Assembly (NCBI GenBank): GCA_028820505.1
Contig: JAPPIT010000004.1
Location: 1-64,000 of the forward strand
Direction: 5' to 3'
Origin: Defluviicoccus sp.
GTDB taxonomy: Bacteria; Pseudomonadota; Alphaproteobacteria; MPNO01
DNA length: 64,000 nt
How positions within the stretch are numbered: position 1 is the stretch's first letter; every line of letters starts with the position of its first letter. Below are positions 5,092 through 55,046 of this stretch, piece by piece. Below the pieces are notes generated by a model that saw only the letters and a program-made list of their open reading frames with translations, was not told the origin of the DNA and searched no databases. The position numbers and the translations under genes were made by a program.

Positions 5092-6130
5092 GATGCACGG
5101 GATGGTTCGCTAGGAAACCTAGGAGGCCCTAACCTGTCCGTAGGGAGAATGCCGGAATAGGGGTGAACCGGCTGACCAAGGACGCTCCGGCCCGACGACC
5201 GCGCCTGCCGGTCGACGGGAGCGCGCAACGCGGACACGAACGCGCAGGCACTCTGCGGAACCGACCGGCGAATCAATAAGTCCGAGGGATGCAGGCCAGG
5301 GAGTCGTAGCGCCTTCATAGTACCGATGACGGCGGGGAACCCGGTCCACGGGGACCCGTCCGAGGAAAGGGAGGCGTCACATGCGCAGACCCACTGACGG
5401 GAAACGATGGAGGAAACGCTGGGTTCCACCAACACGTCGACGAAACGGCAGTGGATAGCCGAACAGGCGAGGGAACACCCGGAGCGGGTCTTCACGTCGC
5501 TGCACCACCTGATCGACATCGACTGGATGCTGGAGGCGTATCGCCCGACGCGGAAGGATGGTGCGACGGGGATCGACGGCGTAACGGCTGCCGACTACGA
5601 GAAGGACCTGCGGGCCAATCTTGAGGACCTGCTGGAACGGATCAAGTCGGGCCGCTACTTCGCGCCGCCGGTTCGCCGCCACTACATCCCGAAGGCGGAC
5701 GGCAGGAAGCGCCCGCTCGGCATTCCGACCTTCGAGGACAAGGTGGTGCAGCGGGCGATCGTGATGATCCTCGAGCCGATTTACGAGACGGACTTTCTGC
5801 CGTGCTCGTACGGCTTCCGCCCCGGGCGCTCGGCCCATGATGCCCTCGACGCTCTGCGCAACGGCATCATGGAGCAGAGGCTGAGATGGGTGATCGACGC
5901 GGATCTGGCCAGATACTTTGACTCGATTCCGCATTCCCACCTTCGCTCTTTCCTCGACCTGCGGATCAAGGACGGTGTGGTCCGGCGAATGCTGGACAAG
6001 TGGCTGAAGGCCGGGGTTCTCGACCAAGGAGTGCTGCAACGGTCCGAGACTGGAACTCCTCAGGGCGGGGTTGTCAGCCCTTTGCTATCGAACGTGTTCC
6101 TGCACTACGTGCTGGACAAATGGTTCGAAG
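5092..6130 (+). mobile_element. Group II intron, 3'-truncated
   Basis: About 300 bases upstream of a maturase-type reverse transcriptase frame are rich in short hairpins and contain phrases typical of intron domain I leaders (for example GGAGTCGTAGCG near 5298 and the CACGGGGACCCGTCCG helix near 5350), which identifies the ribozyme 5' part. The exact 5' boundary is uncertain; I place it near 5092. The element stops abruptly at about 6130 in the middle of the reverse transcriptase. No domain V/VI hairpin follows, and the sequence passes directly into an unrelated broken gene on the opposite strand. It should be incapable of splicing or retrohoming. Confidence 0.75.
5407..6130 (+). pseudogene. 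ltrA: Group II intron reverse transcriptase/maturase, C-terminally truncated
   Basis: The first 241 codons match bacterial group II intron reverse transcriptases: KDGATGIDGVTAADYEKDL, RRHYIPKADGRKRPLGIPTF, PCSYGFRPGRSAHDAL, WVIDADLARYFDSI and GTPQGGVVSPLLSNVFLHYV, in the usual order. The frame then leaves the family right after YVLDKWFE (position 6129), before the catalytic YADD box, and the maturase (X) and DNA-binding regions are missing; the remaining 49 codons of the open frame are read from the antisense of another gene. Complete relatives are roughly 420-480 residues. It is therefore inactive. A second related fragment is at 39807-40390. Confidence 0.9.
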
Positions 6131-11903: not shown

Positions 11904-13091
11904 CTAATCGACCTCGGCCACGAACAGGGTCTCGAACTTGCCGCCCCGGAACTCGTTGACCACGAGCGGCACCGCGATCTGGCGACGCTGGCCGAACGAG
12001 GACGAGCCGACATATTTGAGCTTCGCGTCGCCCTTCATGTAGGGGTTGGGCGCGGAGAACGTGTCCATCGTCTTCTTGAATGCCTTGACGTCGTCGATCG
12101 CCGCCGGGTTCGCCTTGAGCGTCTCGATGATGTACTCCAGCGCATAGACCTTGGTGTTCGACTCGTCGTTGTACTCACCGAACATCTTGGTGTAGCGCGC
12201 GACAAACTCCTTCATCGCGTCGGACGCGATCTCGGGCGTGGACGCACCGCCGACCGAGATGAACCCGTCGGCGAGCTTGCCCGCGCCCTCCATAAGCACC
12301 GTGGCATCCTGCGCGGTCTCGGTCGAGATCAGACCCTTGAACCCGAGCTCGCGGGCCGAGCGGATGATCTGCGGCGCGTTGGCCGGCGCGACCCCGGACA
12401 GCACCAGCAGGTCCGGGTTCGTCCTGATGACCGGCGTGATGACCGGCGTGAAGTCGGTGGTGTCCACCTGGTAGGTGACGCTGTCGGAAACGATCTTGAG
12501 GCCGAGCGCCTTGGCGGCGGCGATCCCGTCGGCGCGCTGGCTGAGCGGGTCGGACTCGTTGGCCGAGATGAAGGCGATCGTCTTGACGCCCTTATTCTCC
12601 TTCAGATGCTTGTAGATCGCGGGTCCCGACTGGTAGCTCGCGACCATGCCGAGCACGGCATTGGACGCGGGCGGGCTGTAGAGCGCCTTGGGGAAGGCAT
12701 AGGGGAAATAGATGATGCCGTTCTGCTCGGCGACCGGGCGCACCGCCGCCGCGCCGTCATCGACGTTCGGCCCCACCACGTAGCGGATCCCTTCCTGGGC
12801 CATCTTTTCCATCCCGGCGATGGCGCGCTTGGGATCCTTCTGATCGTCGAAGGTGACGATCTCGATGTCGTAGGTCTTGCCGCCGATCTTGACGCCGCCG
12901 ATCTCGTTCAGCCACACCGCGCGGGCCTGCATCGACCGCACGTTGGAGATGCCCCACGCCGCGGCCGGACCGCTGGTCACGCCGACGAATCCGATCTTGA
13001 GCTTCGGGTTCGCCGCCTGTGCGCCGGCGCCGATCGCGAGCGATGCGACCAACGGCAGCACAAGGGATGCAAGGACGGATCGTCTGTTCAT
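11904..13091 (-). CDS. livK: Branched-chain amino acid-type periplasmic binding protein
   Basis: The 395-residue protein begins at ATG 13091 (ribosome site GGGAGAG), with a signal peptide MNRRSVLASLVLPLVASLAI ending near AQA-AN. The mature part is a type I periplasmic-binding fold: KIGFVGVTSGPAAAWGISNV, AIAGMEKMAQEGIRYVVGPN, PVAEQNGIIYFPYAFPKALY, and a second lobe with TPVITPVIRTNPDLLVLSG. It captures substrate in the periplasm for LivHMGF. The substrate is not necessarily leucine; the co-operonic racemase suggests a D/L amino acid or related acid. An upstream in-frame ATG at 13139 would add 16 residues ahead of the signal peptide and is rejected. Confidence 0.92.
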   Translation of the reverse strand: MNRRSVLASLVLPLVASLAIGAGAQAANPKLKIGFVGVTSGPAAAWGISNVRSMQARAVWLNEIGGVKIGGKTYDIEIVTFDDQKDPKRAIAGMEKMAQEGIRYVVGPNVDDGAAAVRPVAEQNGIIYFPYAFPKALYSPPASNAVLGMVASYQSGPAIYKHLKENKGVKTIAFISANESDPLSQRADGIAAAKALGLKIVSDSVTYQVDTTDFTPVITPVIRTNPDLLVLSGVAPANAPQIIRSARELGFKGLISTETAQDATVLMEGAGKLADGFISVGGASTPEIASDAMKEFVARYTKMFGEYNDESNTKVYALEYIIETLKANPAAIDDVKAFKKTMDTFSAPNPYMKGDAKLKYVGSSSFGQRRQIAVPLVVNEFRGGKFETLFVAEVD

Positions 13092-13954
13092 AATCGTCTC
13101 TCCCTTTGTTATCGCCTTGTCAGGCGAACTCCATTGCATGAACCCCGGAAGTGGCGAGCCGATCGGTTCGGCCGAAATTCAACGCCTTCGTCTGCGCAGC
13201 CACTTCGTACGCCGGGGCCTCTCATCCGCGGTCGGGGTGCCTGAATTGCGGAGAAACCGTGCTCTTCGCAGCCAGCGGTCGCAGCTTTCTGCGCATGCGA
13301 CCTCCGGAGCCCCGGCCCCGCTCGCCGGCACAGGCGCGAACGCGACGGCGATCGTCCGCCGTCCGGCGGACACGGGTACGGCTCGCAACCGCTTGCCCCG
13401 CGGGTTGCCCCAGCCGGTTTCCGTCGCCTCGCGATCCGGCAGACCGGAGCCATACATGCCCTTCGCCTCATCCCGGAATGGCTGCACACGCTCTCCCGAC
13501 GGGAATGTGGGATCCCGTCCCTGCCTTCCCTGACACGCCGGTATCGACACACTACCGGAATTTCCAACATTGCCAAGTGTCAACAATGTCTCGTTCAACG
13601 CAATAACTGTGGCTATTATGCTCCGATCAAGTTGTGTTCTACGGTTCCCTCCAGGCGGGGGCTTCAGGATCGGCGGGTGAAGCGACGCTTGCGCGACCCC
13701 TCGACCGCTCCGGATCGTTGTGCAGTGACCGGTATGGATGCATCGGGCGACAGCATTTCCGGACGCTTCCGGGGATCGGAGGAACCGGCGGCCGGCGATC
13801 GTCTGACGACCGGACGGCGCCGAGAGCACGTGGAGACGGAAGCTGGCGAACGGAATTCCCAAGCGCATCTGCTCTGCGGCGAGACGCGTTTGCGGCCCAA
13901 CGAGCCGACACCCCAGCGACATGCAGCCGCCCGCTACCGGACCGGGACGTGCCG
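13092..13954. other. Intergenic stretch upstream of livK
   Basis: No convincing gene. It holds the 13-base motif shared with the dispersed repeat (13542-13554) and an AT-richer segment around 13560-13640 that could contain the livK promoter; a TTGACA occurs on the minus strand near 13580, but no good -10 follows at the usual distance. Confidence 0.4.
13542..13554 (-). repeat. Third copy of the TAGTGTGTCGATA motif
   Basis: The 13-mer TAGTGTGTCGATA, read on the minus strand here, also sits inside both copies of the dispersed repeat (19133-19145 plus, 52579-52591 minus). Only the core is shared; the flanks differ from the longer copies, so this may be a short relic or a binding site. Confidence 0.5.
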
Positions 13955-16408: not shown

Positions 16409-18760
16409 TCACGACTGGTCCGGCCGGGCCATGCGGTAGCCGACGCCGCGCACGTTGAAGATCCAGGTCGGACGTCTCGCGTTCTCCCCGAGCTTGCCGC
16501 GCAGCTTGCGCACGAAGTTTCGCACCTGGTTGGGCTGGATCCCGCGCCCCTCGCCCCACAGCTGGCGCAGCAGCGACTTGCTGGTCATCACCCGTCCCGC
16601 ATTGACCGAGAGCAGTCGCAAAAGTTCGAACTCGGTGGCGGTGAGGTGCACCGCCTTCCCGGCCACGCTCACCCGGCGCCGCTCGTAGTCGATGGCGAGA
16701 TCGCCCAAGACGAACGGTTCCGGATCGGCCCGGCCGCGAAGCGCCGCTCCGACCCGCGTCAGCAGCTCGGTCGGCGAGAACGGCTTGACCACATAGTCCG
16801 CCGCGCCCGCCTGAAGCGCACGCGCGACGGTCTCTTCCCGGCCATAGGCAGAGATGAAGATGACGGGCAGATCGGCGAGTTCGGGGACGGTCTCCATCAG
16901 CTCGATCCCGTCGGTGCCGGGCAGCAACAGATCGAGCAGGACCAGTGAGGGGCCGTTCGCCTCGATCAGCGCGCTCACCTCCAACGGATCCGCCGTCACG
17001 ACCGGACTGTAGCCTCCGCTCGCGAGCGCATCGCGCACGTAGCGCAGCATCTGCGGGTCGTCGTCCACCACGAGGATACATCTGCGCTCCCGACCGTCGC
17101 GCGACGCTCGCGTTCCGCCGCCGGGTCCTCCGGCCTCCGCGCCGGATGAACCGGCGGCGGGAAGCGTGAAGGTGAACCGCGCGCCCCGCCCATCGCCATC
17201 GCTCTCTGCCCGGATGCGTCCGCCATGCGCTTCGACCAGCCCCTTGCAGATCGAAAGGCCGAGCCCGGCGCCCGCGGGCTCACGGCCGCCATGGACGCCG
17301 ACGCGCCTGCGGAACAGATGCGGCAGGCGCTCGGACGCGATCCCCCGGCCCTGGTCGGAGACCGAAATCGCGACATGAACGCCGTCGCGCGCCGCGTCGA
17401 TCCGAATGGCCGAGGATTCGGGTGCGTTGTGGGCGGCGTTGGCAAACAGGTTGCCCAGCACCTGGACGATGCGTTGCCGATCGGCCGCGACCCGGGGCAG
17501 CTGCGGCGGCAGGTCGATGACGAGATCGTGCCGGCCGCCGCCGCTCAGAAACGTGTTCCGGGCCCGGTCGACCAGTTCGGCCACCTCGGTGGGTTCGGGG
17601 TCGACCGTGAGCGTCCCCGTCTCGATACGCCCGGCGTCGAGCAGATCGCCGATCAGGGCGTCCATCTGGTCGGCATGCTCCTCGATGATGCGGAAAAACT
17701 GTCGTATCTCGGCCGGGTCGAGCGCGCGCGAGGCGCCGCGCACGGTCGCCGCCGAGCCCTTGATCGCTGCCAGCGGGGCCCGCAGTTCGTGGCTCACCAA
17801 CCCCACGAACTCGACCCGCGTGCGTTCGAGCTCCTCGAGCGGCGCCAGGTCCTGCATGGTTACCACGACGGACGTGACCGCGCCGTCATCCGAGCGGATC
17901 GGGGTCGCGTTGATGAGCGCGGTAACGCTGCGCCCGTCGGGCACGGAGAGCACCATCTCCTCCGCCCGCACCGTCTCGCCGGTGCGCAGAGCCTCGGACA
18001 GCGGGAAGTCATCGAGCGCGATCTCGCTCCCGTCACCGCGCCTGCAGGTCAGAATCTTCAGCAGTTGCTCTGGATCGAAGCCCGGCGCGTGCAGCCCATC
18101 GACCAGCCGCCGCGCCTCCCGGTTGAACGACACCAGACGGCCGGTCGTCGCATCCAACACCACGACCCCGACCGGCGAGGTCTCGACCAGCGCCTCGAGA
18201 TCGGCCCGCGCCTTCCGCTCGTCGCGGTAGATGCGCGCGTTGACGATCGCGGTCGCCGCCTGGGAGGCGAACAGGACCAGCAGTTCCTCGTCCTCCGCGG
18301 TGAACCCGTCAGCCCCCTCCTTGCCGCCAAGGAAGAAGATGCCGACATGCTCGCCGCGATGGCGCATCGGCGTCCCCTGGAACGGCTTCGCCGGGATCAG
18401 TTCGGTCGAGAAACCGAGCGCGCGCACATAGGCCGGGAGGTCCGCCACCCGCAACGGCGCCTCCAGGTCGCGGAAATGCTCGAACAGAACCCGCCCCTCT
18501 TGCCAGGCCTCGTATCGGGCGTGTTCCTCCTCGGTGAACCCCGAAGTGATGAAGTCCGCGGGCTGGCCCGACTCGTCGACGGTGGTGATGATGCCGTAAC
18601 GCGCGCCGGTCAGCGCCCGGGCGCTCTCGACGACCTCGCGCAGCACGGTGGCCGGATCGAGACTTGCGCTGATGCGCAGTATCGCCGCGCTCAGTCTGGA
18701 CACGCGCTCGCGCGCCACCTCCATCCCGGGCGCTGTGCTCTCCGTTGGGTTCATCCCCAT
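16409..18760 (-). CDS. Single-chain phosphorelay: GAF-PAS-histidine kinase-receiver-winged helix
   Basis: The 783-residue protein has a GAF domain (about residues 25-178), PAS-like domain (185-305), HisKA with the phospho-acceptor His324 in SHELRAP, HATPase_c with N-box NLFANAAHNA and G-boxes SDQGRGIA and GAGLGLSICK (to about 533), a Gly-rich linker, a receiver with acidic pair in VVDDDP, phospho-acceptor Asp610 (LVLLD) and Lys659, and an OmpR/PhoB-type winged helix (684-780; TATEFELLRLL, NFVRKLRGKL, VRGVGYRM). There is no membrane helix, so it is a cytoplasmic sensor. Kinase, receiver and DNA-binding output lie in one chain, so the protein can sense, phosphorylate itself and bind DNA. An N-terminal stump of a relative is at 24494-24775. 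The ATG at 18760 follows GTGAGGG; ATG 18754 is an alternative, and the longer upstream reading is not protein-like. Confidence 0.92.
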   Translation of the reverse strand: MGMNPTESTAPGMEVARERVSRLSAAILRISASLDPATVLREVVESARALTGARYGIITTVDESGQPADFITSGFTEEEHARYEAWQEGRVLFEHFRDLEAPLRVADLPAYVRALGFSTELIPAKPFQGTPMRHRGEHVGIFFLGGKEGADGFTAEDEELLVLFASQAATAIVNARIYRDERKARADLEALVETSPVGVVVLDATTGRLVSFNREARRLVDGLHAPGFDPEQLLKILTCRRGDGSEIALDDFPLSEALRTGETVRAEEMVLSVPDGRSVTALINATPIRSDDGAVTSVVVTMQDLAPLEELERTRVEFVGLVSHELRAPLAAIKGSAATVRGASRALDPAEIRQFFRIIEEHADQMDALIGDLLDAGRIETGTLTVDPEPTEVAELVDRARNTFLSGGGRHDLVIDLPPQLPRVAADRQRIVQVLGNLFANAAHNAPESSAIRIDAARDGVHVAISVSDQGRGIASERLPHLFRRRVGVHGGREPAGAGLGLSICKGLVEAHGGRIRAESDGDGRGARFTFTLPAAGSSGAEAGGPGGGTRASRDGRERRCILVVDDDPQMLRYVRDALASGGYSPVVTADPLEVSALIEANGPSLVLLDLLLPGTDGIELMETVPELADLPVIFISAYGREETVARALQAGAADYVVKPFSPTELLTRVGAALRGRADPEPFVLGDLAIDYERRRVSVAGKAVHLTATEFELLRLLSVNAGRVMTSKSLLRQLWGEGRGIQPNQVRNFVRKLRGKLGENARRPTWIFNVRGVGYRMARPDQS

Positions 18761-19397
18761 GTCCCTCACCGTCGCGTCTCCGGCGCGGGGCGGATTCGCT
18801 CCCGGCCGCTGCATCGGCGGTGCACTGCCCGCCCGGTCGGATTCGCGCGCATGCGACTCGGCCGCCCCATGCTGTCGTATGGGGCCGAATCTAACCCAAC
18901 GGGCACAGGAAAAACCACTTTCCGGGACGGTAGGAGGGGCGCGACCGCGCACCGGTGGAGCGGAAGCGCGCCCGGTGCCGGCCTGGCGCGGATCCGGGAG
19001 CGATGGAGCGATCCCGATTCGACGCGCGTCAGGAGAAGGCGCCTGCTGCGCGCGCGTCCACAAGACACAATGAAGGTAAAGAGTCCCCGGAAAAGATACT
19101 ATAGGGGCCTCGGTTCGGTCGTTCGTTTCCTATAGTGTGTCGATACGATGCGAAATCCCGTCCGAGCAGGAGGATTGTGTCGGCTGCCGTCGTACCCGGG
19201 GTTGCCGCGATGCGATCGAACCGGCCTGGATTGGCAGCCCGTCCATGGAGGACAAGCCGCATGGCGGATCGCGACGCACCGGGAGTCTCCGTCGGGCCCT
19301 CGATCGCCGCCCGTCCGGCAGTCACGGTCGTCGCCGCGGCGAACGGTATCCACACCGTCGGTATCTTCGCCCCACGACTCCTGCCGGGCGCCAGTCG
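18761..19397. other. Intergenic stretch with dispersed repeat
   Basis: Holds the repeat copy at 19124-19280. An AT-richer section around 19066-19135 may carry the promoter of the phosphorelay gene. No supported gene. Confidence 0.45.
19124..19280 (+). repeat. Dispersed repeat, copy A (about 157 bp)
   Basis: From CGTTTCCTATAGTGTGTCGA to GCGACGCACC the sequence aligns along its whole length with the minus strand of 52438-52600, by eye around four fifths identical, with small indels. Shared blocks are TAGTGTGTCGATA, GGATTGTGTCGGC, GCCGCGATGCGAT, CGAACCGGCCTG and CGCATGGCG. Neither copy encodes a consistent protein, so this looks like a non-coding cassette, an IS remnant or a regulatory element. 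Confidence 0.75.
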
Positions 19398-19634: not shown

Positions 19635-20052
19635 AGCACGCCCCGTCCGGGAGGACGCCTGTGCCGCGCGGAGACGGCCAATACCGCGGCGGGGATGATC
19701 GTCCAGGACCATCGGGTGGACCGTCATGCGGATACGGTCAGGTTGCCGACGCTCATGGGGAACGAATTCGACTCGGTCGGCCTTGTGCGCGAGAGCCGGG
19801 TGCGGCCCATAGTCCTCGACGAGAGATTGCCGGACGACCGCTTCGTCCAGGACGCGGATACCGATCCTATCTCCGCCGGGAACCCCGATGTGTCGATCGT
19901 CAACGACCCGCGCCTGCTGCCGCGCCCGGGCGGGGCGCGGACCGGCGCGGACCGATCCTGCGGTGCCCCTCCCCGGAGCAGGGACGAAAGGCCCATTTGG
20001 CATGGGTTCCGGGGATGGGGGCGAACCGCTTGGGAAGAAGGGAACCAAGCCG
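19635..20052. other. Stretch with an unassigned open frame
   Basis: A frame beginning near 19695 reads acidic and fairly protein-like for about 75 codons (GNEFDSVGLVRESRVRPIVL, then DADTDPISAGNPDVSIVND) and then becomes Arg/Gly-rich as it nears the lipoprotein gene. It could be a gene remnant; I cannot name it. Nothing else is seen. Confidence 0.3.
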
Positions 20053-21075
20053 ATGAATTTCCAGCGCGTGCTTGTCGTTGCCATTGCAGGTACGGCGTTG
20101 ACCCTCGGCGGGTGTACGGGTGGGGGCGGGGATGAAGCCGCGCCGCTGCCCCCGGTCGAGATTCCGGAGCTCACGCCCGAGCCCCAGCCGTTTCGCGCGC
20201 AGACGTCCTTCGCCGATGGCGTGCTCAGCGTCGACGTGGTGGTTCCCGACGGCGGCACCCGCACGCTCGATACCGTGCGAAACACGGACTGGACAGGGGG
20301 GTTGTTTCTCCCCCGCCCCGTCCAGCCCGGTCACTCCAACCGCGAATGGATGCTGTCGGACAACCACTATGACGGCCGGGTGTTCCTCTACGCCCTCGTC
20401 TCGTGGGACAACGCCGACCCGACCGATTACCTCGCGGCGGGATGGTGGCTGACCTACCCGCCGGATGTCGACTACCGGGACTTCGAGACCGCCGCCCGCG
20501 GGGTGTATCTCGATGGCCCGGAGATCGATCCGGCCCACCCGCCCGCCCTGCCCCTCGAGGGCACGGCCAGCTATGCCGGTGGGATGGGCGGTCTGTACAC
20601 GTACACCTACGGACGGGCGTGGGGCGAACTCGCAGGCGCCACCGAGATCACGGAGTTTGCCGGGCTGGTTGCCTTGACCGCCGACTTCGAGCGGAACCGC
20701 CTCACCGGCTGCCTCGGCTGTCTGGCGCCGATCGAGACCGCACCCGGTCGCCATCTCTATCCGGTCGTACCGTGGCGGGGGCCCGATCCCGCCGCATTGC
20801 CCGCCGACTACGACGTGCGCTTCGAAGCCCGGATCGGCGCCAGAGGCGCCTTCGGGGATACCGCCATCAGCGTGACCCATCCCGACCGCGCCGTCGTCAG
20901 CAGCGCCGGGACGTGGCGAGGACAGTTCTCTAACCGGCAGGACGTGGATGGCAATCCCCGGCGCGTGGTCGGCTCGACCGATGTGCTGTTCGCCGAGGAG
21001 GACGGCTCGCATGGACGCTTTACCGGCATCTTCGATGCGTTGACGCCCAAGACCGTCGAGCCGCCTGAGCGGTGA
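20053..21075 (+). CDS. Lipoprotein with TbpB/transferrin-binding-like barrel (paralog)
   Basis: The 340-residue product has a lipoprotein signal peptide (MNFQRVLVVAIAGTALTLGG then lipidated Cys21) and a Gly/Pro-rich tether. The beta-rich body contains DPTDYLAAGWW and GTASYAGGMGGLYTYTYG, matching the gene at 14167. The C-terminal part is the classic TbpB-like barrel run: VRFEARIGARGAFGDTAISV, GTWRGQFSNR, VVGSTDVLFAEEDGSHGRFT. The pair Cys-Leu-Gly-Cys (GCLGC) in the middle could form a tight disulfide or metal site. It is directly followed by a family-3 solute-binding gene (51 bases), so the two probably act in one uptake or sensing pathway. Ligand unknown. Confidence 0.75.
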   Translation: MNFQRVLVVAIAGTALTLGGCTGGGGDEAAPLPPVEIPELTPEPQPFRAQTSFADGVLSVDVVVPDGGTRTLDTVRNTDWTGGLFLPRPVQPGHSNREWMLSDNHYDGRVFLYALVSWDNADPTDYLAAGWWLTYPPDVDYRDFETAARGVYLDGPEIDPAHPPALPLEGTASYAGGMGGLYTYTYGRAWGELAGATEITEFAGLVALTADFERNRLTGCLGCLAPIETAPGRHLYPVVPWRGPDPAALPADYDVRFEARIGARGAFGDTAISVTHPDRAVVSSAGTWRGQFSNRQDVDGNPRRVVGSTDVLFAEEDGSHGRFTGIFDALTPKTVEPPER

Positions 21076-21125
21076 GCCCGCCAGCGCCCGACCGCCCGCC
21101 GTTCCGCAAGTCGAGGAGGAAAGCC

Positions 21126-22130
21126 GTGTTGCGTCCCACCATCTTCGCATCGATCACCCTATTGTCTCTCGGCTTGGCGACCGCCGGTGCCTCGGCCGAG
21201 GGCTGTCCCAAGGTGGACAGGAAGCTCTCCTTCGGCTTCTACGCCCATTTCGAGCCCGTCAGTCACAGCGCCGCCGACCGGCCCGGGGCTCCCGGCTTCG
21301 ACACCCATCTTGGCTACGAGGCCGATCTGCTGAGCGCGCTTGAGGCGATCGAAGGCGCCAACCTCTCGTTCTCGCGCAAGGGCATCGCGGAATGGGCCGG
21401 GATCTGGCAACTCCCGGCCGCCGGGTGGTTCGATGTCGTGGGCGGCGGCATCACGATCCTCGAGACCCGAACCAGGGATTCCGCCGGCAAGACGACGATC
21501 GTCTTCACCTCGGGCCACATCGCGTTCCGTCACTCCCTTCTCGTGCGGGCGGAGCACACCCGTCGTCTTGCCCGCTACGGGGATCTCACCGGCGCGGACC
21601 GCGTGGGCGTGGTCAGGGGGACGACGGGCGAGGCGCGGCTGCTGGAGCTGACCGGCATCGCCAACGCCGCCGGAGTGCTGGCGGCCGGCACCCGGGTGGA
21701 GACGCCGGACGGCCCGGTTCCAGCGGACGGCAGCGCCGCCTACGTCATCAACGCCGCCGGGGTTTCGCCGATGCTGACCGGCAGGCGTCAATTGCGACCG
21801 GCCTCAGCCGCGATGCCCAGGGTGATGTACTACTCGGAAGAGCCGGCGCTGATCGAGGCACTTGTGTCCGGGCGGATCGACGCCGTCGCGAAGGACGAAA
21901 TCGGCAACCGGGCCGACGCGGCGGCTCATCGCGGCACTCTCGTCGTCACGGCTGTGGACAGCCGGGCGGAGGCCGGCGGGTTCGCGTTTGCGGCGAAGGA
22001 CGCGCCGCTTGCGGCCTGCTTCGACCGCCACATCGCTCGGCTGACCGATGGCGGGCGGATCGGCTTTCGGGACTGGCTCGACGACCGACAGGTGTTCATG
22101 CGGCGCGCCTCGCAGTTCGGACGAAGGTAA
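21126..22130 (+). CDS. Family-3 extracellular solute-binding protein
   Basis: A GTG at 21126 follows GAGGAGGA and opens a 334-residue protein with a signal peptide (cut near ASA-E24). The mature part matches the family-3 periplasmic-binding fold: SFGFYAHFEPVSHSAADRP, FDTHLGYEADLLSALEAIEG, a first-lobe segment with FDVVGGGITILETRTRDS and TSGHIAFRHSLLVRA, and a second lobe with GVVRGTTGEARLLELTG. No permease or ATPase gene is adjacent, so it may serve a transporter elsewhere, or a receptor. It comes right after the TbpB-like lipoprotein gene. A paralogous stump remains at 6131-6439, where the neighbours are also micro-membrane proteins. The longer frame from 21072 adds no signal and is rejected. 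Confidence 0.82.
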   Translation: MLRPTIFASITLLSLGLATAGASAEGCPKVDRKLSFGFYAHFEPVSHSAADRPGAPGFDTHLGYEADLLSALEAIEGANLSFSRKGIAEWAGIWQLPAAGWFDVVGGGITILETRTRDSAGKTTIVFTSGHIAFRHSLLVRAEHTRRLARYGDLTGADRVGVVRGTTGEARLLELTGIANAAGVLAAGTRVETPDGPVPADGSAAYVINAAGVSPMLTGRRQLRPASAAMPRVMYYSEEPALIEALVSGRIDAVAKDEIGNRADAAAHRGTLVVTAVDSRAEAGGFAFAAKDAPLAACFDRHIARLTDGGRIGFRDWLDDRQVFMRRASQFGRR

Positions 22131-32791: not shown

Positions 32792-33580
32792 CTATCGACC
32801 ATCCCCATATGCCTTCAGCAACAATTCACCTGCCGCTCGCTTTTGGTCGGCAGCCAGCTTCCCAAAGGGCTTTTGGGCCGCCGCGCCGAAAATGAACAAC
32901 GACCGTTCGCCGCCAACGTCGTACCACCTCGCGCATATCTCGTACGGTCTAGAACGAAGCTCGCCGCTGGCTGTCCGCTCGAAGGCGAGGATGACCCTCC
33001 AATTCGTCTTTGGCGCAAACTTGATGCGCTTGAGGTGCGCCTTCGCGACCGAGAGCGCCACGATTTGTGGTCGGAGTTCCTCCAACAGCATGTGCCAGAG
33101 CGAGGTGCCGTCGGCCGCGAGAACCGAGCGAGTGTCCTCGTTGAGTCCGGACCAAGTCGGATTCGTGGCGACAGGCGAGCAGATGTCCGTGTGGAGCGCA
33201 GTGGATGCGCGACCCTCGTAGTAGCTCGCCTCCATGCCGTTAAGCAACGGCTCGAAGGTGCTGAACCATCCGCGGTACGGATTAGTGCGAAAATACGCGG
33301 ACATCGCGTCGAGGTAGCGAGACGGCTTCCGGGCGACGCAACCCTCCGCCAGGGGAAATCGCCGGAACGGCTCGTCATTCGGAAACTCACGCAGAGAGGG
33401 ATTCAATCCGACCGTCAGCAGGCGTAGCGGTGAATCCCGGTACGCATGGAGATCACCGAAGAATAGAATGGGCGCGGCCGGCGTAACGCACCACGACCGA
33501 CCGGCGGAGTGGTCGAAAGCTTGCCAAGCCCGCGCAACGTGCTCAACGAGTGGTTGTACCATCGGGGAAATCTTGCTCAT
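32792..33580 (-). CDS. UDG-superfamily-like protein
   Basis: The 262-residue protein has GLNPS (residues 58-62), reminiscent of motif 1 of the uracil-DNA glycosylase superfamily (GxNP), a central VALSVAKAHLKRIKFAPKTN strand-helix and a late SLFIFGAAAQKPFGKLAAD segment where UDG relatives have their second active-site loop. The match is to the fold pattern; typical catalytic Asp/His residues cannot be fixed by eye. Its ATG overlaps the stop of the integrase fragment (ATGA at 33580-33577), so it is part of an island and is translationally coupled. It might be a DNA-repair or defence protein. It could also be an unrelated family. Confidence 0.45.
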   Translation of the reverse strand: MSKISPMVQPLVEHVARAWQAFDHSAGRSWCVTPAAPILFFGDLHAYRDSPLRLLTVGLNPSLREFPNDEPFRRFPLAEGCVARKPSRYLDAMSAYFRTNPYRGWFSTFEPLLNGMEASYYEGRASTALHTDICSPVATNPTWSGLNEDTRSVLAADGTSLWHMLLEELRPQIVALSVAKAHLKRIKFAPKTNWRVILAFERTASGELRSRPYEICARWYDVGGERSLFIFGAAAQKPFGKLAADQKRAAGELLLKAYGDGR

Positions 33581-33925
33581 GGGCTCGGTTGTCGTGGTTC
33601 GCCAACATCGCTGAGCCGCATCGCCCTTGCAACGAAGTGTCCCACTTTCTCCGCCGCTTCAACGCGGTGCGCATCAGCGAGGTGAGCGTAGATGGCAGTC
33701 GTGCGATCGCGCCGATGGCCAAGCAACCTCCCGACTTGGGACAGTCCCTCACCCGACATGACCGCCTGACTTGCCGCCGTGTGCCGCAGGTCGTGCAGCC
33801 GCATCCTGCCGATCTGCGCGTCCGCACAAATCGCCTGCCAGCGGTCAATCAGGGTTGTCGGCATGCGTTTCCCGGCATAGCGTGAAAACAGGTACGCATC
33901 CGGGTCTCGTCGACTGAGCAGCGCA
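33577..33925 (-). pseudogene. Tyrosine integrase, C-terminal catalytic fragment
   Basis: The fragment of about 115 residues includes the H-x-x-R box (RMRLHDLRHTAASQAVMSGE), the LGH motif and the tyrosine (GHRRDRTTAIYAHLADAH), ending VGEPRQPSP. The sequence before DPDAYLFSRYAGKRMPTTLI is unrelated, so the N-terminal and core-binding domains are lost. It is inactive as an integrase. It lies immediately upstream of the UDG-like gene. Confidence 0.8.
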
Positions 33926-34600
33926 TTGATCGTGGGGTGTGGACTCCGGCAAATTGTCCCAATTCTGCAACCCGTCAAGCGATTGGCCTCCTCCGGGTAC
34001 GACCGGGAGAGCACGGCACGGGGACGACTCTCGATCGCCGGTCCGCTGCGAAGTGGACGGATCGTGCTGCTGACGCGCCCGGACTGTACCGACGTCTCCG
34101 GCGCCTTTGCCGTGGATGGAACGGACGCCGGCGCGGGCGGCGCGGACGGGGACAGCGCGATGGCCGTACCCCCGTTACCGCCGCCGCAACCGAAGGGGAC
34201 CGTCGCGCCACCAGGGCGAAGACTGACAATCGCACAAACATCGTCTGGCGCGGGAGGGCGGGTCCAGGCATCCGAAGAACCGGGATACGCATACGAGGCT
34301 CCGTCCGCATCGGGAGCCGCTCGACCGTAGTCGCGATAGGTCCGCCGCTGCACCCAGGTCAGGGCGGACCGCATAGGTCCGGCGCCGGGCGCATCGGCCC
34401 TTTCGGTCGGAGGACCTGTCGCCGTGTCCCGCCGGATGAGCGAGGTCGCGCCGGGATAATCTCCAGCTGCGATTGCGCTCCTCTTCGGACCGGGCTCTAT
34501 TCCCCACGGCTATAGTTCGATCGCGCTCGTCCTCGATGCCGATCGGGCGCACGCCAGCCGGAAGACGGCGGCAAACAAGCTGGGGGCGGTTCGCGAAGGC
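33926..34600. other. Gene-poor stretch
   Basis: No supported gene. Open frames are Ala/Gly/Pro-rich. The left edge is the point at which the integrase fragment loses similarity. Confidence 0.4.
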
Positions 34601-39293: not shown

Positions 39294-39800
39294 TCACCTG
39301 GTCGAACCGCCGGTCGCCGCATCGAAGGGGTACAGTTGAGTGCCCTGTCCTATGATTTGGGGGATCTCCCGTCCGACACGCTCGGCGGCCCGTTTGATGT
39401 CGCGGTCCGCGAGATGGGCGTAGCGCAGCGTCATGCGGGTGCTGGAATGACCGAGCAGGCGAGAGACCACCGGCACCGGCACACCGTTCATCACCGCGTG
39501 ACTGGCATGGGAATGACGCAGGTCGTGCAGCCGCACGTTCTCGATCCCGGCCTCGCGCCGCACCCGGTACCAGAGCCCGAGGTTCTGGCCACGCGGCCGT
39601 GACGGCTCGCAGAGCGACGGGAACACGAACGGACTCTCTCCGCGCGGCCGGCGTTCGAGAATGCGCCGGGCCTGGCTGTTGAGCGGAACCTTTCTTGGCC
39701 CGGTCTTGGAATCCGCCAGCACAATGGTGTCGCCCCGCACCTCGGACCAGCGCAGCCGAACGATCTCGTTCCTGCGGTAGCCGAACAAGCGCGGGAGCAT
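39294..39800 (-). pseudogene. Tyrosine integrase, catalytic-domain fragment
   Basis: The 168-codon fragment holds the integrase catalytic domain: first Arg in YRRNEIVRLRWSEV, Lys in SKTGPRKVPL, the H-x-x-R box VRLHDLRHSHASHAV, LGH, and Tyr in MTLRYAHLADRD. It starts abruptly at the junction with the second reverse-transcriptase fragment (about 39800), so the N-terminal arm and core-binding domains are lost. All catalytic residues are present, but without DNA-binding domains it is unlikely to integrate. Confidence 0.85.
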
Positions 39801-39806
39801 CCGAAT

Positions 39807-40390
39807 CGGGTGTTCACGTCCCTGCATCACGTCACTAATGGCGAATGGATGCGCGAGGCGTACCGCCTGACGCGCAAGGATGGAGCGACAGGCATCGACG
39901 GCGTGACGGCCGCCTACTACGAGAAGGACCTGGAGGCCAATCTCGATCACCTCCTGGGCCGAATGAAGTCGGGCCGTTACTTCGCGCAGCCGGCACGACC
40001 CCACTACATCTCCCAAGGCGGATGGCACAAGACGACCGCTCGGCATTCCGACCTTCGAAGACAAGGTGGCGCAGCGGGCCATCCTGATGCTGCTGGAGCC
40101 GATCTACGAGACGGACTTTCTGCCGTGTTCCTACGGCTTCCGGCGCGGACGGTCGGCCCACGATGCCCTAAACGCACTTCGCTCGGGCATCATGGAGCAC
40201 CGCCAACGGTGGGTGATTGACGCGGATTTGAAATCCTACTTCGACTCGATCTCGCACACCCATCTGCGGTCATTCCTCGACCTGCGGATCAAGGACGGCG
40301 TCGCTAGGCGCATGATCGACAAATGGTTGAAGGCAGGGGTACTCGAAGAGGGCACCCTGCACAGACCGGTCGCTGGCACCGCCCACCCTC
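39807..40390 (+). pseudogene. Group II intron reverse transcriptase, doubly truncated and frameshifted
   Basis: VFTSLHHVTNGEWMREAYRL and KDGATGIDGVTAAYYEKDLE open the fragment in one frame. A one-base insertion near 40010 (ATCTCCCAAGG where the intact relative has ATCCCGAAGG) moves the match to the next frame, with EPIYETDFLPCSYGFRRGRS and WVIDADLKSYFDSI. The match ends at GTLHRPVAGT (about 40390), before the QGG and YADD boxes. It is homologous to, but clearly different from, the fragment at 5407-6130, so it represents a second intron. Confidence 0.88.
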
Positions 40391-51510: not shown

Positions 51511-51990
51511 TCAGTCGCGACGGTCGGAGCCGGCTTCGACACGATCACGCTTTTCGCCCGCCTCGAATACAGCCGTCAACGCATTGGCCGACGCCAGGAG
51601 ATCTTGAAGCGTATGCCGGTCGAGGACATCCAGAAAGGCCTGTAGCGCCATTTCCAGAACGTGCGTCAGAACGCACGGTCCCGCTATCGCGCAAGAATTC
51701 TCTTTCTCCCCCGCGAAGCATTCGGCGAGTTTGAAGTTTCTTTCCGTCGTCCTGAACACCTCGCCCAGGTTGATCTGGCTCGCCGGCATCGCGAGTTCCA
51801 GGCCTCCGTTCTTCCCCCTGGTGGTTGCGATGAACCCTTTCTGGCCGAGCCGATGGATCGACTTCATCAGATGACTCTGCGAGATACCGTAGGCGTCGGC
51901 GATTTCTTGGGCGGTGCAGCGCCGATGCCGATTGAGACCGAGATAGATCAGGGCACGCACCGAATAGTCGCTGTATCGGGTGAGCTGCAT
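51511..51990 (-). CDS. Rrf2 family [Fe-S] regulator, NsrR-like
   Basis: The 159-residue regulator has the Rrf2 winged HTH (MQLTRYSDYSVRALIYLGLN, AQEIADAYGISQSHLMKSIH, TRGKNGGLELA) and three cysteines at 91, 100 and 106 (C-x8-C-x5-C), the region used by NsrR and IscR to hold an iron-sulfur cluster. The spacing and the start MQLTRYSDY fit NsrR, a nitric-oxide sensor, better than IscR. No target gene is adjacent; NnrU at 27965-28522 would be a plausible regulon member. ATG 51990 is the family's conserved start. Confidence 0.85.
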   Translation of the reverse strand: MQLTRYSDYSVRALIYLGLNRHRRCTAQEIADAYGISQSHLMKSIHRLGQKGFIATTRGKNGGLELAMPASQINLGEVFRTTERNFKLAECFAGEKENSCAIAGPCVLTHVLEMALQAFLDVLDRHTLQDLLASANALTAVFEAGEKRDRVEAGSDRRD

Positions 51991-53603
51991 GATTTCGACC
52001 TCATCGGTTCTAACGTCTACGCCGTTCCTCGAGCCGCGAATCTCGCGCGCGACGCCATGGGCTGAATGATCCGAAGCGGTGTTGTCGCCAACTTGCACTC
52101 ATGCTTCGATGCCCGGGCGACACGCTGTTCCGGGACTTGCCATACGGCGTTCGCCGGCCGGGCTTCCGAGATGCGCTCTTCCAACCCGGCCAGGGGCGCC
52201 TTGCCGCTTTCGTCCCGCTTGAGCGCGTCGCCAGCGCGCGGCGACCGACTGTGCGATAAGAGGTGCCGCAAGAAGAAGGGTGGGCGCGCACAGGAGGAAT
52301 CGCCGCGGGGGCGTTCGAGATGGAGGTTTCGGCGTCGACCGCTGCGCCGGGAATGCCTCTGGAACGGTCTCGGAATGTCAATTGGCACCGAAAAGTACTC
52401 ATTTTCTGCGATCCAAGAGCTCCCACTTGGGGCATGGGGTCCGTCGCAGCGCGCCATGCGCCTCGCCTTCCATAGACGGTTTGCCCATACAGGCCGGTTC
52501 GACCGCATCGCATCGCGGCGACCCCCGGCACGACGCCGGCCGACACAATCCACCTGCCCCGATGCGGAAATTGCGTCCTATCGACACACTAGAGGAAACG
52601 TTCGCGGAAACAGAGTGTTCAAATCGTGTCGTTCCAGGGGGTTGCCCAGGGGCTGCCGTGCCTTTGACGTCGCTTTCCGACGCGGGCGTGGCAGGCGCCG
52701 ATTCGCCGGATCTGGGGCGGGAAGGGCGGCGGCAATTCGGAGGCGTCGGAGAGCGGAGGGGGAATTGAGTGCTCGGGAGGTGCGGCAATCCGGTTAGCGA
52801 TACGGCAATATCCGCGAAAGGAGCGGACGGGTGCGCACGGGACGCTTCGGCGAATGGCGTTCGAGCGGCGCGGCTAGCGCGCCGGGCGTGGCGACGGTGC
52901 TGGCCGGCTCCGCGTTCGCCGGCGAAGACGGGCCTGACCCCCGGACGCGCAACAGCGGAGAACGTCGCCCCTGATAATCGACACTGGATTCAGGCGCGGC
53001 CATGGATGTCAGGACGCAGACCCCGATTTCCGTGGTACGGGGACGTCGGGTGTCCACCCATCGGGTGCCTAGTCGACAAGGATCGTACCGTCCACTTGGC
53101 TGGCCAAGCTCACGGGTCCATGCGCTTCGTAGCCAGGAAGGCCGTGATGCCCAACGACCCGGGCATGCCAAGCGGCCGGCCGCTGGACCTCTTGCACGAC
53201 GGAAACCCGGCCGGTAGCGCCACGCACCTCGACACCTGCGCCAACGCCGCCGTCGAGCGCGGCCAACCCATCGAGCGGACCGGGACCGGCGACCTCGTCC
53301 CCGAGCCGACGCCCCCGTCGCTGGCGATGCGCAAATTCGAGGAGAGGGGCCGATGTGCCTGCATCGCTTCGACTTCTCCCGCATGCCCTTCGAGACCCTG
53401 GCGGAGACCGCCGACCGGGACGACGGCCCCGAAACGCCGCTGGATGTCGCGCGAAAAACCGAAAATGGGGACGACCCGGGTGACGAATTGTTCGTCGACG
53501 CCGTGCCGGCGGAGGAGGGGGTCGAGAACCACAGGTCGAGGGCGGATGCGTTGCCGGCCTCCGGACGTCCGTACAGCTCGCGGCCCTGTCTTGTCCCGGC
53601 GCC
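51991..53603. other. Long gene-poor stretch
   Basis: Holds dispersed repeat copy B (52438-52600). Open frames on both strands are Arg/Pro-rich. The segment 53340-53580 reads fairly acidic on the plus strand (MPFETLAETADRDDGPETPL) and may be a remnant, but no gene can be supported. The stretch borders an integrase pseudogene. Confidence 0.4.
52438..52600 (-). repeat. Dispersed repeat, copy B (about 163 bp)
   Basis: Read on the minus strand from 52600, this is CGTTTCCTCTAGTGTGTCGA and continues with the same block order as copy A at 19124-19280 (GGATTGTGTCGGC, GCCGCGATGCGAT, CGAACCGGCCTG, CCGTCTATGGA, CGCATGGCG). The two copies are inverted with respect to each other and 33 kb apart. Confidence 0.75.
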
Positions 53604-54257
53604 TCAGGCCGCCTCAATGGCGGTCGCCTGGAGCCCGCGCGGCACGGTCTCCGCGCGGACGAGCACGCGCTGGCCCGGCTGGAGGTCGGCCTGCTGTCGA
53701 CTGTCCTCTCCGGTGGCCTCGTCCAGGGCCTTGTGAAGGCGCCCGATCTCCTCGCGCGACAGGAAGCGCGTGCACGTCGGCCGCCGGTTTCTCTTCACGC
53801 CCCGCGTCGGGTTCCTGTCGATATAGCCTCAGGCGATCGCGAAATTCATGATCTGCCGGAACGGATCGGGCGTGCGACTGGCACCGCCCGGGGCCGTCCG
53901 GCTGAATGCGTCGAACCGGGATCTGACCGCCGTCGGTGCGATGCGATCGAGCGGCTTCGCGCCGAAGGCGGGCAGACTCCGGCTCGCAAGCACGATTCGG
54001 CTGCTGCGCTTGGTCGAGGGCTTGTGGCGGTCGAAGCGAGCAACCTTCCACGCGCCCGCGACGAAATCCCGCACCGTTGGGGCCAGCCGCTCCCGCCCTG
54101 GCGTTTCGTTCGACGTCGTCCGGAGTGCGAGGCATTGCCGGCGAATATCGGCGATGTTCCTCGTAGACGCGGGACCGAGCGAAACGCGTCTTAAGCTGCC
54201 GCCTTGCCCCTGCAAGAGGACGCAGCGCCGCCCGCCGGGCGGGCGCAACATCCCCAT
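53604..54257 (-). pseudogene. Tyrosine integrase, N-terminal part, interrupted by TGA
   Basis: In one continuous minus-strand frame the region encodes the core-binding domain of a tyrosine integrase: PTVRDFVAGAWKVARFDRHK, PAFGAKPLDRIAPTAVRSRF, FSRTAPGGASRT, RQIMNFAIA. An in-frame TGA (53829-53831) stands where relatives have Cys or another residue, and the frame resumes with GYIDRNPTRGVKRNRRPTCT and RFLSREEIGRLHKALDEATG. Similarity ends at DSRQQAD (about 53690), so the catalytic domain is missing. It is the only N-terminal integrase piece in the window. Confidence 0.8.
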
Positions 54258-55046
54258 GGGTCACCTCCCCTGCGCCGTCGCGGCTCTGGGGACGGAAGCG
54301 AAGGTCCGGCTGCCGGAGGAATACTGCTCGGTAGCGGGGCAGCGGGTCGACAGCAGCGTCGCGGAAATGCCGTTCCGGCCGTCGGTGAACCCGAACGCGC
54401 GGGAGATCGTGTGCGCAGAGGGGCGCGATACCGCATGCTTACAGATCCCGGCAACTCGCGATGGCGGTGTGCAGATTCGAGGACTGGCGCGCCAGCTCCA
54501 GGGCCGGCGGCACCTTCAGGGTCATCGCCATGGCCGGGTGCGACGAGAGGCGCCGTATCGCGCGCGCCTCCGCTGCCGTCCGCGACATCGCAGCGGCGGC
54601 GACCGCTTTCGCCGCGGGCTGGAGGATCGGACCCGCCTTCGCGGGCGTGCTGCATGATGCGACGGAGAGCTTCGCGCCCGCGCCGTTCGCGACCTCCGAC
54701 ATCGCGATCGCGACCGGTATACTCCTGGCGCGATTCGATCCCGATACCCGCTCCGGGACCCGTGAGCGTTGAATTCGTTGGATCTGGGCCCTGGCCGGAT
54801 GCGATGCGGAGGCGGCGGTATCCTGTGCGCCGGTGCGTTCGCAGGTCGCCGGGATCGCCCAAAGGAACCCGGGGCGCGATTTCATGGAGGCCGAAGAGAA
54901 AGCCTTCGACCGCTCCGGAGGGTTCCACCACCGAGCCCGGGCATTGTATTTCCTGCATCGAGCGTCAGATTGGAATCGATCCATTCGCGGACATTGCAGG
55001 GTTGCGGGTACGAATCGGGGATACGCTTCGGTCAAGGGAGAACACG
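54258..55046. other. Intergenic stretch, nothing recognised
   Basis: No supported gene. Start-less or low-complexity frames only. Confidence 0.45.

Follow-up and report, generated by a model that had tools for sequence, protein, structure and literature searches.

The window, a stretch of 64,000 nucleotides from a Defluviicoccus genome of 5.49 Mb in 228 contigs (it forms part of contig C197), contains two similar intergenic segments in inverted orientation. Copy A (positions 19124–19280, plus strand) lies upstream of, and divergent from, the gene (16409–19063, minus strand) of a hybrid histidine kinase that combines GAF, PAS and receiver domains with an OmpR/PhoB-type DNA-binding domain; this protein likely starts near 18930, because its homologues begin near residue 44–48. 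Copy B (52438–52600, minus strand), 79% identical to A, is located upstream of the gene of an Rrf2-family transcriptional regulator (51511–52098, minus strand), for which homology begins at about 52010 and which adjoins cysG and sulphite/nitrite reductase genes. A third position, 13542–13554 on the minus strand, has an exact match to the 13-mer TAGTGTGTCGATA found in both copies and lies upstream of a liv-type ABC transporter operon, the first gene of which codes for a periplasmic binding protein of the branched-chain amino acid type (11904–13139, minus strand). The kinase gathers a two-component system in one protein (GAF-PAS-HisKA-receiver-OmpR output) and is 44–83% conserved across MAGs of many phyla (loci L029–L108); many of the other relatives that bear the kinase are MAGs with isolate names resembling those of sponge metagenome bins. 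Two adjacent genes (20036–21095 and 21231–22109) have relatives elsewhere in the genome and in the genus with 71–83% DNA identity; the former has no known domain and the latter only a weak match to solute-binding proteins.

Several pieces of mobile or repeated DNA accompany these genes. At its 3′ edge, copy B meets the beginning of a second dispersed repeat of 66 bp (52376–52441, minus strand), other copies of which are found at G000:C66:203–268 (89% identity) and G000:C107:4440–4501 (about 83%). The C107 copy follows, at a distance of about 150 bp, a reading frame that by eye resembles istB; the 66-bp repeat is solitary at two of its three places and is perhaps the end of an IS21-type element. 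On the other side of B, the region 53367–54434 includes stretches of 60–570 bp present in more than 20 copies across the genome and the genus, and the reading frames tested in this high-copy DNA (53110–53532 and 53848–54657) have no Pfam match. The window also codes for two tyrosine recombinases (33577–34374 and 39294–40082) and contains a 569-bp direct repeat (5456–6023 and 39778–40346, 80% identity) formed by two group II intron reverse transcriptase/maturase genes, both fragmentary; Rfam detected no intron RNA near 5456–6023.

Copies A and B align over 157 and 163 bp, respectively, with 78.5–79% identity, an E-value of about 1e-31 and two gaps of 1 and 5 bp, in full agreement with the alignment of A (plus) to B (minus) over about 160 bp reported in a preliminary description of this DNA. 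Outside A and B, their neighbourhoods show no similarity of note. The same description called them a dispersed repeat, a label that has to be abandoned: BLAST against the whole 5.49-Mb genome retrieved A, B and, beyond these, chance-level matches only, with no third copy. As DNA, the repeat is missing from 60 relatives, from 35 genomes reached through loci, and from the plasmids, phages and viral contigs searched. The model search for further copies that had been suggested yielded none that convinced us, since a sequence model built from A and B and applied to 41 genomes recovered these two and elsewhere weak matches only, none of them convincing in the 40 other genomes. One match to this model in G001 (E = 1.6e-4), upstream of the gene for a fadD-type acyl-CoA ligase and considered as a third copy or as a sign of gene-start origin, was taken as chance because the matching stretch is absent from the orthologues in G004 and G000. 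As a recent gain would predict, the repeat is also absent beside the homologues of the A- and B-flanking genes in relatives, so that the duplication looks lineage-specific. With only two copies, and none in the other genomes searched, A and B are thus a two-copy lineage-specific duplication and not a dispersed family; they do not look like a new family of elements or of RNAs. The “perfectly conserved blocks” described at first show no more clustering than mismatches placed at random would produce (p about 0.15). Set against chance at about 80% identity, the differences of A from B have no significant clustering (p 0.15–0.17), so that these blocks need no selection and are no proof of selection within the repeat.

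The 13-mer stands out more than the 160-bp repeat itself. Besides the third site, where its exact recurrence on the minus strand had rightly been noted from the start, it occupies 19133–19145 in A (plus strand) and 52579–52591 in B (minus strand), exact in both. These are its only exact matches in the 5.49-Mb genome, all three inside the window, where an order-3 Markov model predicts 1.1e-4 occurrences in 64 kb and 0.01 in the genome; the reversed 13-mer, used as a control, has no exact match in the 5.49-Mb genome. Three 13-mers are shared exactly by A and B, for which reason the fair expectation that one or other of them would turn up again in the window by chance is about 0.02. All three sites are outside recognisable genes, which bears out their first description as intergenic, and all three are upstream of a gene start and oriented towards it. 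The 13-mer is thus over-represented upstream of genes in this genome, with three occurrences versus 0.01 expected. Because two of the three sites sit in the duplicated segment, the independent evidence for a box comes from the third one.

Other places where this box might occur were considered. Near-matches in G004:C86 and G005:C127 are both located inside reading frames and were rejected as further sites, and box-like sequences near homologous kinases (80 loci) show no enrichment, with nothing beyond the sister species. The box extended by three further fixed bases, which is a short pattern, matches five viral contigs among 2.9 million; longer patterns of the repeat have no match among viral contigs. 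The box contains GTGTG, the usual start of group II introns, and reverse transcriptase fragments are nearby; its identification as the 5′ end of such an intron was nevertheless discarded, given that there are no further copies and no intron RNA is recognised by Rfam.

At the third site, the 13-mer is centred in an inverted repeat, CCGGTA-9-TACCGG (13538–13558), that A and B lack. All that this site shares with the two copies is the 13-mer plus, at an equal offset, a TTCC; the 160-bp repeat is absent from it. The sister species G004 (Defluviicoccus sp. isolate jk18x22bins.41, from the same genus as the window genome) keeps the site as TTTCCGGTAGTGTGTCGATA (L029:7984–8003), upstream of the liv-type operon and with the same genes on both sides. 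G004 also has the kinase, without the repeat upstream and with an apparent IS5-type transposase in place. What makes the 13-mer plausible as a putative small cis-regulatory box is that its third copy precedes an ABC operon of the branched-chain amino acid type and persists in the sister species. Of the three ideas advanced in the preliminary description, a shared binding site is therefore the one that best suits the 13-mer, thanks to this retention, but the retained run of 19 identical bases lies in a spacer that is itself 70% identical, and a run of this length has a p of about 0.09 given that background.

The main rival to a duplicated promoter or leader supposes that A and B have decayed from an end or an interior part of a mobile element, either undescribed or lost, and no longer function; the third 13-mer would then match by chance or as a target site. 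We consider this possible, if doubtful. It would accord with the flanks of copy B (the 66-bp dispersed repeat on one side, high-copy DNA on the other), with the group II intron reverse transcriptase fragments and the two tyrosine recombinases in the window, and with the neutral appearance of the divergence between A and B. However, it has to accommodate the lack of any other copy in the genome, relatives, plasmids, phages and viral contigs, a 13-mer match that is improbable by chance, and the lack of terminal inverted repeats, the best 12-mer end matches being 8/12 (A) and 7/12 (B). Like the dispersed intergenic repeats of the MITE, ERIC and REP types, A and B are short, non-coding, intergenic and present in both orientations, but they differ from them in being two copies only, in having neither terminal inverted repeats nor a stable hairpin, and in being absent from relatives; on these grounds, the undescribed miniature element initially envisaged is not supported. 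A further likeness is with the template and variable repeats of diversity-generating retroelements, as there are two similar repeats of about 150 bp and reverse transcriptase genes in the window. Nonetheless, the mismatches are not adenine-directed (9/30 in A, 6/30 in B) and the reverse transcriptases are of the group II intron type and fragmentary.

Transcription of A and B, in the direction of the 13-mer, into a structured RNA or a structured 5′ leader is unlikely. Folded singly, the two copies are no better than shuffled sequences (z −0.1 to −0.7) and differ from each other, but on the 13-mer strand the consensus fold of both is a little more favourable than under simulated divergence (z about −1.4 to −1.6, p about 0.04–0.08), and the reverse strand shows nothing of the kind. 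In this consensus, built from two sequences only, none of the 43 pairs is broken, with five one-sided and two two-sided changes; the latter are no commoner than in shuffled columns, and two sequences cannot establish covariation. Rfam gave no match for the repeat at gathering thresholds, and none or one chance match at E up to 5. The regulatory RNA family proposed at first is thus not supported, given ordinary single folds, a borderline consensus and the lack of an Rfam match.

Descent of both copies from a single protein gene, or from the start of one, appears quite improbable. Its appeal comes from the 3′ end of copy A, where a possible Shine-Dalgarno sequence (GGAGG) is followed by an ATG at 19261 (19239–19263, plus strand, from reading the sequence); copy B has the counterpart GGAAGG...ATG, and a few similar codons are found in both. 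Past the ATG, however, the reading frames of A and B are unrelated, and the tested frames over A and B have no match in Pfam or NCBIfam. Judged from the alignment, the repeat is not coding, because the 1- and 5-bp gaps break every shared frame and the substitutions have no codon-position bias. The preliminary description would have fallen if no further copies existed and the similarity came down to two decayed copies of one protein gene; there are indeed no further copies, but these frame-breaking gaps and the absence of codon-position bias leave the decay of a protein gene unsupported. The 13-mers are still less probable as the attachment cores of an integrated element, for which the third site and copy B would be direct repeats 39 kb apart with the recombinases of 33577–34374 and 39294–40082 between them: the asymmetric 13-bp core within an inverted repeat at the third site would fit, but the same genes flank that site in the sister species, so that no insertion boundary is there, and the 160-bp repeat in A and B would be left unexplained.

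We tentatively favour, short of an even chance, a duplicated segment of promoter or leader type with a putative regulatory box, copied amid mobile-element remnants. An intergenic segment of about 160 bp would have been duplicated inside the lineage and then have diverged to 79% identity. The segment would most likely carry a promoter-proximal regulatory module, beginning near its 5′ edge with the 13-bp box (TTTCC-N2-TAGTGTGTCGATA) and continuing as a leader that ends in the Shine-Dalgarno-like sequence and the ATG. The box is probably a regulator-binding site, because it also occurs upstream of the liv-type operon and is kept there in the sister species; the nearest candidate regulator would be the adjacent hybrid kinase, with its OmpR-type DNA-binding domain. 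Recombination or IS-linked copying is the probable route of duplication, since mobile-element remnants border copy B; remnants of IS and of group II introns are plentiful in the region. The data show the repeat, the number of its copies, the count of the box and its persistence in the sister species, whereas the regulatory function, the identity of the regulator and the way of copying are all three what we infer. A and B resemble duplicated promoter/leader segments and the operators of local regulons in lying upstream of genes and in the short exact box, which is common to the upstream region of another operon and kept in a sister species. They depart from both in having neither recognised promoter hexamers nor a known operator, and no sigma-70-type promoter or terminator match was found near A or B. 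A bolder version is very improbable in our opinion: the lineage would have two copies of a structured leader RNA, not yet described and equipped with a promoter box of its own, and this box would tie it to a local regulon comprising the hybrid kinase, the liv-type transporter and the Rrf2 regulator beside the sulphite-reduction genes.

Should the box have no such role, the locus would serve as a caution that a repeat with 79% identity and seemingly perfect blocks can result from plain neutral divergence after a single duplication. A genuine operator role for the box would instead connect three transcription units that are neighbours, in an alphaproteobacterial genus that is uncultured and has been little studied.
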